Assembly (NCBI GenBank): GCA_013152275.1
Contig: JAADGS010000014.1
Location: forward strand, 1-38,335
From: Actinomycetota bacterium
GTDB lineage: Bacteria; Actinomycetota; Acidimicrobiia; Spongiisociales; UBA4744
Direction: 5' to 3'
DNA: 38,335 nt
This document shows positions 10,478 through 13,698 of the stretch, piece by piece. The first letter of the stretch is position 1. Each line of letters opens with the position of its first letter. The notes beneath the pieces are model-generated. The model saw nothing but the letters and a program-made list of their open reading frames with translations. It made no database searches and was not told the DNA's origin. The translations under genes were made by a program, and so were the position numbers.

Positions 10478-11758
10478 TCAATCGAGTCGACGTGCCGCGC
10501 CGGCCTCCACCACAGGTTCTTCCTTCTTCCGGAATGCCAGTGTCACAAGGCCACCGAGCAGCAGCAACGCAGCGCCGATACCACCTGCGGTGGTCCCCGA
10601 CGCTCCGGTGAACGGCAAGGTCTCTGTCGTCGGCGAGGTCGTGACCGTCGTCGCCGGACGCGTGACCGTCGTCGGTGAGACCGACGCCCTCACGACGCCG
10701 GCGTCCCACGTCAAGTCGTTCTGGCCCGCTGCCAGTGTGATCACGCCCGTCCGTCCGGTCGTGCGATCTGCATCACTGCCTGTCGAAACCGTCCCCTTGC
10801 CAACGATCGTGAACCCGCCGAAGCCAGGTACGCCGCCAAGGCCGTCGGGAATGACGAACTCGACCACATAGGTACCTGCCGCGAGGTCCGTGAACAGGTA
10901 GTTGCCGCCGGCGTCGGTCACCGTGGTGTCCAACTTCGTCGTGCCGGTGCCGTCATACAGATTCACGATCACCCCGGCTATTCCCGACTCTCCCGAACCC
11001 TGAATCCCATCCTCGTCCGGTTCGACCCCGTCGTACCAGACGAAGTCACCGATAGAGCCAAGAAGCGGTGGGCACTCACCAACGGTGAACCTGCCCGACG
11101 TCCGCCCAACCAGCGAGAAACCAGGCGCAGCCGACGCCACCCACGTATACGAACCAGGATCGAGCGTGAACGCATCACCGGAACCGGTAGCCACATACGA
11201 GCCACCAGGCCCCGTAATCGTCACCATCGCACCAGACGTCGGAGCAATCACCACCTTCACAGGGGCCTCCGACGACTCACCATTCCACGAACACGACCCG
11301 GCCGAAACCGTCACCGACGCATCCGTCGGCGGCCGTTGGCATCCGGTGTCGTCGAGTTGGCTCAGGTCGATCGACAGCGATCTGGAAACATGTTGCGGGC
11401 CCCCGTCAGACCAATCTGCTTTCACGGTCAAGGTCTTGACGCCCGAATCGGAGAGCGAATACGAAACCGTGTCGGATTCGGTCGCATTCGGTCCGAGCAC
11501 GAGTCCATGTTTGATGTCTGTCAGCAGACTGTCCGAGTAGGTGACCTGGTCGACGGTCATGACGCGCCCGGACCAGTTCCCGTTCGCCACCGTCCAGGTG
11601 ATCTCCCACTCTCCCGACTCCGCGGAGCAGCCGGCATCGACAGACAGAATCGGATGGTGCGCCGATGCCGCCGGTGCGAAGTACCCGATGAGGGGCACCA
11701 CCAAGACAACAACGAGGATTGCTCGCAGTGCCTGTCCAGCCCAAGTGTGATCTCTCAT
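10478..11758 (-). CDS. Secreted LPFTG-anchored protein with SdrD-B-like domain (1)
   Basis: Protein of 426 residues. It has a signal peptide (basic start, hydrophobic core, cleavage near PAASAHH), Ig-like beta-rich regions and one SdrD B-like (Cna-B fold) repeat (GSIGDFVWYDGVEPDEDGIQ onward). A Thr-rich linker leads to a sortase sorting signal: LPFTG, hydrophobic helix, then RKKEE. It should be covalently attached to the cell wall. The ATG at 11758 is chosen over one 18 bases upstream because AGGAGG lies 7 bases before it. It is a relative of the gene at 12088-13536 and has a similar leader, but the N-terminal halves differ. The exact function is unknown; adhesion or stalk formation is possible. 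Confidence 0.85.
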   Translation of the reverse strand: MRDHTWAGQALRAILVVVLVVPLIGYFAPAASAHHPILSVDAGCSAESGEWEITWTVANGNWSGRVMTVDQVTYSDSLLTDIKHGLVLGPNATESDTVSYSLSDSGVKTLTVKADWSDGGPQHVSRSLSIDLSQLDDTGCQRPPTDASVTVSAGSCSWNGESSEAPVKVVIAPTSGAMVTITGPGGSYVATGSGDAFTLDPGSYTWVASAAPGFSLVGRTSGRFTVGECPPLLGSIGDFVWYDGVEPDEDGIQGSGESGIAGVIVNLYDGTGTTKLDTTVTDAGGNYLFTDLAAGTYVVEFVIPDGLGGVPGFGGFTIVGKGTVSTGSDADRTTGRTGVITLAAGQNDLTWDAGVVRASVSPTTVTRPATTVTTSPTTETLPFTGASGTTAGGIGAALLLLGGLVTLAFRKKEEPVVEAGAARRLD

Positions 11759-11777
11759 TTTCCGCCTCCTCGTCAAG

Positions 11778-11851
11778 GGGGCGGGCCGGTCTCACCACTG
11801 GCTCACTTCGATCCTTGGTGACCGCGTACAGATCGAAGTTCAACGCCTCCC
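11778..11851 (-). promoter_or_regulatory. Structured leader RNA element 1
   Basis: In the mRNA the order is GGGAGGCG, then a 9-bp stem ACTTCGATC/GATCGAAGT (11831-11839 with 11805-11813). Its 17-base loop contains CGGTCACC (11817-11824). This loop can pair with GGTGAGACCG downstream (11787-11796), with one bulge, to form a pseudoknot. The following CCGCCCCC can pair either with GGGAGGCG or with the Shine-Dalgarno region GGAGGCGG. The leader of the second LPFTG gene repeats this plan with compensatory changes in the stem. Confidence 0.7.
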
Positions 11852-11864
11852 GTTATTGGCCCCT

Positions 11865-11881
11865 GACCACAATGTGTGGTT
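11865..11881. promoter_or_regulatory. CCAC-N5-GTGG palindrome at LPFTG gene 1
   Basis: Inverted repeat GACCAC-AATGT-GTGGTT on the plus strand, placed 8 bases beyond the candidate -10 box, so it begins at about the transcription start. It may be an operator or a 5'-terminal mRNA hairpin. Five similar sites occur in the window, all upstream of envelope genes. Confidence 0.65.
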
Positions 11882-11889
11882 ATGAAGTC

Positions 11890-11918
11890 ATGATATACCA
11901 CTGCACGCGGTCTTTCAA
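11890..11918 (-). promoter_or_regulatory. Predicted sigma-70-type promoter of LPFTG gene 1
   Basis: TTGAAA (11913-11918) and TATCAT (11890-11895) are separated by exactly 17 bases on the minus strand. The predicted start is near 11883, giving a leader of about 125 bases. The promoter of the second LPFTG gene has the same -35 hexamer and the same spacing. Confidence 0.65.
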
Positions 11919-12037
11919 CCACTATTTGTGCTGTCTCGTCCACGCTGCGTGTTGCACACGCCTGCCTGACAAGACGGACCTCCCCAACGGTCGTCGCCGA
12001 CGTCTCCGTCTCGATACCGCCCCACCGCGCAACCAGC

Positions 12038-12065
12038 GAGGGCCTCGGCAAAAGCCGAGGCCCTC
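12038..12065 (-). terminator. Hairpin after LPFTG protein gene 2
   Basis: A 12-bp perfect stem GAGGGCCTCGGC / GCCGAGGCCCTC with a 4-base loop lies 22 bases past the stop codon at 12088. There is no clear T-run, as is common in high-GC actinobacteria. It separates this gene from the promoter of LPFTG gene 1. Confidence 0.75.
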
Positions 12066-12087
12066 TGATGACGATACGCCGGTACGG

Positions 12088-13536
12088 CTACTCGGCGTCG
12101 TTACGGATTACCACCAGATCGTCCTCCTTGCCACGAACCGCCAGCAGAACGAGCCCCCCGAGCAGGACCAGGCCTACCGCCGCTCCCCCAAGGCCGCTGG
12201 AGGATGCACCGGTGAATGGCAGTGTCTCGGTGGTCGGGCGCACTGCGGTCGTCGGTTCTACTTCGGTCGTGCGGTGTATGCCTGCATCGACCGTCAGATC
12301 GCTCACCCCCGCGCCAAGCGAAATGATGCCGCTGCGTCCATTCGCTCCCGCATCGCTGTCGATCGTGTCGTCCGATCCTTGATCCGCAGCCGAGAACTCC
12401 CACGTTTCTGCCGGAAGCACGAACTCGACGATGTAGTCGCCGGCCAGAAGCCCGCTAAAGCCGTAGTGCCCGTCGGAATCTGTTGTCGTCGACTCCAGCT
12501 GTGCACCACTGCCATCCAGCAGGTTCACCGTGGCTCCTGCGATTCCGATTTCACCGGCATCCTGCAGACCGTTGGTGTTCGCGTCGTTCCACACGAAGTC
12601 GCCAATGGTTCCGGCTTGAGGCGCCGTCGTCGTCGTGGTGGGCGGCGCCGTGGTCGTCGTGGTCGTCGGCGCCGTGGTCGTCGTGGTCGTCGGCGCCGTC
12701 GTCGTCGTGGTTGTCGACGCCGTGAACGTGTTCGTGAACACGCAGGTCACCGACTCCCCTTCGGCCAAGTCGATCTGTGCCGGATCAGACCCGTCCGAAC
12801 ACGCCGTGGAGGTGAGCTCCCATCCCGGGGGCAGCACGGTTTCCTTCACGTCATAGATCCCGGCAGGTAGGCCGTCGAACGTGGTCGAGGCCACCCCCGA
12901 CGCCGTGGTCATACTGAAGTCCGTGTCGTCCAGAGTCTCCGAAGAGAACGAGAACGTTCCGTTACCGTTGATCGCGTTCTTCAGGATCTTGATCGAGCCG
13001 GTCGCCGCCTCCGGCACGGGAACGAACGCTGCGCAGACCGGGTGAATCGAGTTCGCATAGGTCTGGGCATCACCGGGAGTGGGCCAGAACGCGTGACGCG
13101 CCCAAAGCTCGGTGAGGTCCGGAACGAGCGTGTCTGCGTTCACCTGCTGCGAAAGGAAGTCCACATCGTTCGGCAGGTCGGCGATGATGCCTGAAAGGAA
13201 CGAGGGGGTGGCTCCAGAGACCATCGAACGATCGGCGAGCTGCCACTGCTCATGTGCCTGCACCTGAGGCGACGTGCCATCGTGGGGATCATACGAGTAC
13301 AGGTAGATGTCGTACCGTCCCGCCGGAATCGATACGGCGACCGGCCCGGTCTCGGCATCCGCCTTGGTGAGGTCGGAACGAATCATGTGCGCGCCCAGAT
13401 CGACGATGGTTCCTTGTGTGAACGGGCACGTCAAATCCGGCTCGGCCGTCTGCCCCCATGCAGGAATTGCCAGAAGCCCGACCAAGAGCGCCATCGTGGC
13501 GACCGCGGCACCCCACCTCAATAGACCCTTTTTCAT
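12088..13536 (-). CDS. Secreted LPFTG-anchored protein with SdrD-B-like domain (2)
   Basis: Protein of 482 residues. The signal peptide is MKKGLLRW plus a hydrophobic stretch ending near PAWGQ. An N-terminal region (about 30-175) of unknown type is followed by a Cna-B/prealbumin-like region (about 180-270, with GLPAGIYDVKE). A long linker of Thr runs broken by AP (about 275-310) precedes one SdrD B-like repeat (GTIGDFVWNDANTNGLQDAG). The end is a sorting signal: LPFTG, hydrophobic helix, then RGKEDD. The ATG at 13536 has AGGAGG 6 bases upstream. It should be anchored to the wall by sortase. Its C-terminal half matches the gene at 10478-11758, which suggests an old tandem duplication with a changed N terminus. 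Confidence 0.86.
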   Translation of the reverse strand: MKKGLLRWGAAVATMALLVGLLAIPAWGQTAEPDLTCPFTQGTIVDLGAHMIRSDLTKADAETGPVAVSIPAGRYDIYLYSYDPHDGTSPQVQAHEQWQLADRSMVSGATPSFLSGIIADLPNDVDFLSQQVNADTLVPDLTELWARHAFWPTPGDAQTYANSIHPVCAAFVPVPEAATGSIKILKNAINGNGTFSFSSETLDDTDFSMTTASGVASTTFDGLPAGIYDVKETVLPPGWELTSTACSDGSDPAQIDLAEGESVTCVFTNTFTASTTTTTTAPTTTTTTAPTTTTTTAPPTTTTTAPQAGTIGDFVWNDANTNGLQDAGEIGIAGATVNLLDGSGAQLESTTTDSDGHYGFSGLLAGDYIVEFVLPAETWEFSAADQGSDDTIDSDAGANGRSGIISLGAGVSDLTVDAGIHRTTEVEPTTAVRPTTETLPFTGASSSGLGGAAVGLVLLGGLVLLAVRGKEDDLVVIRNDAE

Positions 13537-13558
13537 TTCCGCCTCCTTGCCATGAGGG

Positions 13559-13630
13559 GCGGGCCGGTCTCACCACTAGCTCACTTCGGTTCTTGGTGAC
13601 CGTATTACGAACCGAAGGTCATCGCCTCCC
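13559..13630 (-). promoter_or_regulatory. Structured leader RNA element 2
   Basis: Same plan as the element at 11778-11851: GGGAGGCG, stem CTTCGGTTC/GAACCGAAG (13611-13619 with 13586-13594), loop CGGTCACC (13597-13604), partner GGTGAGACCG (13567-13576), CCGCCCC, then the AGGAGGCGG ribosome site. Against element 1, two stem pairs change on both sides (A-T to G-C and C-G to T-A) while single-stranded motifs stay identical. This is the pattern expected of a conserved RNA structure. Confidence 0.7.
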
Positions 13631-13644
13631 ATTTACTAACCCCC

Positions 13645-13669: not shown

Positions 13670-13698
13670 ATTCTATGTCACCCATCGCGCGATTTCAA
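13670..13698 (-). promoter_or_regulatory. Predicted sigma-70-type promoter of LPFTG gene 2
   Basis: TTGAAA (13693-13698) and TAGAAT (13670-13675) are spaced by 17 bases on the minus strand. The predicted start is near 13663, about 125 bases before the ATG. The remaining bases up to the clpX stop at 13773 hold nothing I can assign. Confidence 0.65.

Follow-up and report, generated by a model that had tools for sequence, protein, structure and literature searches.

Two adjacent surface-protein genes of a Spongiisociales actinobacterium carry c-di-GMP-II-GAG riboswitches with predicted control of translation

Two LPFTG genes and their leaders

The window analysed here, a stretch of 38,335 nt from an Actinomycetota bacterium of the order Spongiisociales (class Acidimicrobiia), carries two adjacent minus-strand genes for secreted LPFTG surface proteins, each with its own leader of the same design. 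The first encodes a protein of 482 aa with SpaA-like and SdrD B-like domains (12088..13536, minus strand), and the second a protein of 426 aa with an SdrD B-like domain and a Gram-positive anchor (10478..11758, minus strand). Two sortases were found in the genome. The LPFTG DNA pattern, the only sorting motif that was searched for, gave eight matches genome-wide, but a true C-terminal sorting signal was present only in these two genes, and the six further matches were rejected as additional substrates. Between the two genes lies a perfect strong hairpin, AGGGCCTCGGC-AAAA-GCCGAGGCCCT (window 12039-12064), which is not followed by a T run on the strand of the genes and gave a subthreshold match to BjrC68; it is possibly a terminator or an RNA-processing hairpin. 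Promoter-like sequences, both identified as consensus matches only, lie at matching distances upstream of the two leader RNAs on the minus strand (TTGAAA-17-TAGAAT at 13670..13698 for copy 1 and TTGAAA-17-TATCAT at 11890..11918 for copy 2), so that each gene is probably a transcription unit of its own.

The initial annotation had described the leaders as a candidate new structured RNA class. A covariance-model search with Rfam led to full-length matches (model 1-86/86) of both leaders to the c-di-GMP-II-GAG riboswitch aptamer RF03169, with 71.5 bits for copy 1 (13553..13638, minus strand) and 67.7 bits for copy 2 (11775..11859, minus strand), about 30 bits above the curated gathering score of 40 bits. 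Their identity is thereby settled: both leaders are further members of this known family, and a genome search detected no RF03169 copies other than these two. The structured leader RNA with a pseudoknot, common to the two LPFTG genes, was thus recognised correctly but is known rather than new, and the spans given for it (11778-11851 and 13559-13630) covered the aptamer core of what are larger aptamers (11775-11859 and 13553-13638). Both aptamers occupy a cis-regulatory position in the 5' leader of their gene, with the conserved GAGACC ending 29 nt before each start codon. The window copies share the P1 core, P2, P3, the pseudoknot and the GAGACCG signature of RF03169, and nothing separates them from that family except that most of the outer P1 in the Rfam model stays unpaired in both. 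The parent family Cyclic di-GMP-II (RF01786) belongs to the same clan and has the same architecture, but carries GCAACCG in place of GAGACCG in the 3' pseudoknot strand (GAGCCCG in the GCG variant), and RF03169 scores higher for both window copies; in the search of the own genome, copy 2 passed the RF01786 cut-off of 53.5 bits (55.1) and the other copy reached 52.4 bits. A full-text search of the literature on the GAG variant returned nothing beyond passing mention.

Aptamer architecture and occurrence in the order

The four conserved blocks GGGAGGCG, CGGTCACC, GGTGAGACCG and CCGCCCC, as noted initially, are present in both minus-strand leaders, and the window contains exactly two instances of the arrangement CGGTCACC-N(10-40)-GGTGAGACCG (11787-11824 and 13565-13602), whereas shuffles contain none. 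The loop pseudoknot suggested from these blocks is real and is the family's own, consisting of CGGUC/GACCG and ACC/GGU around a GA bulge. It is formed on the minus strand by the loop CGGTCACC at 13595-13602 with GGTGAGACCG at 13565-13574 in copy 1 (13565..13602), and by the loop at 11817-11824 with GGTGAGACCG at 11787-11796 in copy 2 (11787..11824); an A-U pair within it is replaced by G-C in two homologues. The compensated stem changes between the copies were likewise borne out as two P3 pairs, one changing from G-C to A-U and the other from U-A to C-G. In an alignment of 49 homologous sequences, standard pairs filled 94.8% of the pair cells and 13 of 23 pairs changed on both sides, values reached by none of 500 shuffles. 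All eight pairs of P3 change on both sides somewhere, with 94.9% of the cells paired, while the pseudoknot is 99.7% paired, a near-invariance due in part to selection, since the homologues were picked by the pseudoknot motif. The P1/P2/P3 architecture with a pseudoknot from the loop to the 3' strand is therefore supported by covariation. P1 uses only the GGG of GGGAGGCG, the GGC belonging to P2, and amounts to only about four pairs in both window copies. It has only a few bases in common with the anti-Shine-Dalgarno (anti-SD) strand described below, which speaks against the mechanism proposed further on.

Matches to RF03169 over the cut-off were found 47 times in the order, in 32 of 138 genomes, and in 81 of 296 sampled genomes of the class; 14 control genomes gave none. 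In genomes G012, G014, G133, G135, G136 and G137, two or three copies are clustered over a few kilobases, as they are in this window. The association with LPxTG genes extends across the order, where an LPxTG sortase signal ends 16 of 17 complete downstream proteins. As the domains of these proteins vary widely (SdrD_B, SpaA, DUF11, a subtilase and a GH114), what unites them is the wall anchor rather than membership in a single protein family. Two examined loci combine different variants of the clan: at L030, a GCG variant (2735-2819) and a GAG variant (1501-1586) lie within about 1.2 kb, and at L100, a GAG-type aptamer (301-383) is followed 237 nt downstream by a canonical-type c-di-GMP-II aptamer (620-703), itself just upstream of a gene for a small secreted protein (ATG at 740). 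The latter is a possible two-aptamer arrangement.

Predicted pairing of the aptamer with the Shine-Dalgarno sequence

For CCGCCCC, alternative pairing with either GGGAGGCG or the ribosome site GGAGGCGG had been proposed as a switch. The second half of this proposal, sequestering of the Shine-Dalgarno sequence (SD), is likely, but pairing with the whole of GGGAGGCG does not hold: with its GGC located in P2, such a pairing would break the aptamer and not represent its closed state. Sequestering hairpins on the minus strand were predicted in both leaders, in copy 1 at 13539..13562 (anti-SD/P1 3' strand 13555-13562, SD side 13539-13547; MFE -13.0 kcal/mol, z -1.1) and in copy 2 at 11762..11784 (anti-SD/P1 3' strand 11775-11784, SD side 11762-11771; MFE -14.4 kcal/mol, z -2.6). 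Taken by itself, the copy 1 hairpin does not stand out from its shuffles, so the support is comparative. Nearly all homologues of the order have, bordering the aptamer on its 3' side, a C-rich strand able to pair with the SD that lies immediately ahead of the start codon. When anti-SD and SD strands were swapped among 34 non-redundant members of the order, the mean duplex energy was -11.2 kcal/mol compared to -13.4 kcal/mol for the native pairs, and a value as low as the native mean arose in none of 20,000 permutations, a strong result though not a fully independent count, since related sequences share both strands. Similarly, of 39 homologues, 34 had at least two bases of the P1 3' strand paired to the SD zone in their minimum-energy fold, compared to 49% of the shuffles. 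An aptamer strand can thus pair alternatively with the SD, and this computed pairing is conserved across the order. Since the native pairs exceed the swapped ones, and since one and the same strand is needed by both P1 and the SD hairpin, ligand-ON control of translation is the most likely device, and we infer ON polarity for the predicted switch. A leader peptide in the second leader was rejected, the frame of the gene (the one frame translated) being closed.

Ligand, alternatives and the proposed surface-protein regulon

From the promoter-like sites, the family assignment and the SD pairing, we propose that both LPFTG genes are transcribed from promoters of their own and that their leaders act as c-di-GMP-II-GAG riboswitches. 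In the ligand-free RNA, the SD GGAGGCGG would be paired with the P1 3' strand together with the bases that follow it (CCGCCCC), and translation would be blocked; on ligand binding, this strand would be kept inside the aptamer by P1 and the pseudoknot, leaving the SD free and allowing the surface protein to be made. The ligand being most likely c-di-GMP, the cell would produce both sortase-anchored proteins when c-di-GMP is high, in the attached state, and their role may be adhesive. We give this reading as a whole a probability of roughly 0.75.

Its ligand is quite probably c-di-GMP. The likeliest alternative is a GAG variant of altered specificity that responds to a different cyclic dinucleotide or to a related nucleotide, with the same SD-sequestering output. 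The GAGACCG strand differs from the canonical GCAACCG near the ligand site, in the 3' pseudoknot strand that we take to touch the ligand in the solved c-di-GMP-II structure, and the specificity could therefore differ as well. Moreover, of nine relatives examined closely, eight have as their only GGDEF match a divergent protein with a GGDDF motif, and it is in view of both points that we infer the identity of the ligand. This protein is conserved and has well-conserved flanks (L162-L165, L167-L170 and, in the own genome, L172 at contig C23:2806-3060). Against a change of ligand, the own genome encodes three GGDEF domains, two of them strong, and two EAL domains, and the GGDDF protein retains the N of 'ND' and the D of 'GD', presumably the guanine contacts of PleD. 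The proximity of GAG aptamers to a GCG variant (L030) and, upstream, to a canonical-type c-di-GMP-II match (L100) also suggests a shared signal. A GGDEF match was present in all 32 riboswitch genomes of the order (p ~0.002, relatedness not controlled). Changed specificity thus appears unlikely, and its specific form, in which the GGDDF protein makes some nucleotide different from c-di-GMP and the GAG variant of this order responds to it, as a one-enzyme, one-riboswitch circuit driving sortase-anchored surface proteins, is more doubtful still.

Control of a terminator, or a ligand-OFF switch, is very improbable. Class II switches of C. difficile act by transcription termination, as described for Cdi-2-4/pilA1 (PMC6366702), but neither copy showed a terminator-like site in the stretch from aptamer to start codon, and an intrinsic terminator was accordingly rejected as the expression platform. 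Instead, it is the SD that is covered by the downstream hairpin, and the start codon follows the conserved GAGACC at a median distance of 40 nt in the order. Because one strand serves both the aptamer and the anti-SD, the polarity would be ON and not OFF. The new riboswitch class proposed in the initial annotation is practically ruled out by the full-length RF03169 matches and by copy 2 additionally passing the RF01786 cut-off.

The predicted c-di-GMP-II-GAG ON switch acting by SD release has a tested counterpart in C. difficile, where the class II c-di-GMP switches, four in number, are all of the ON type; two of them, Cdi-2-1 and Cdi-2-3, positively control the sortase-dependent surface proteins CD630_32460 and CD630_28310 (PMC6200980, PMC6366702). 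The predicted switches here resemble these class II switches that turn on sortase-anchored proteins (PMC6200980), whereas transcription termination there contrasts with predicted SD sequestration here, and the proteins and the phylum differ. The pair described here is probably a coherent surface-protein regulon with an SD-sequestration mechanism. It would give the little-studied GAG variant a concrete regulon of sortase-anchored surface proteins, apparently switched at translation, and would be a parallel, in a distant lineage, to the circuit of C. difficile.
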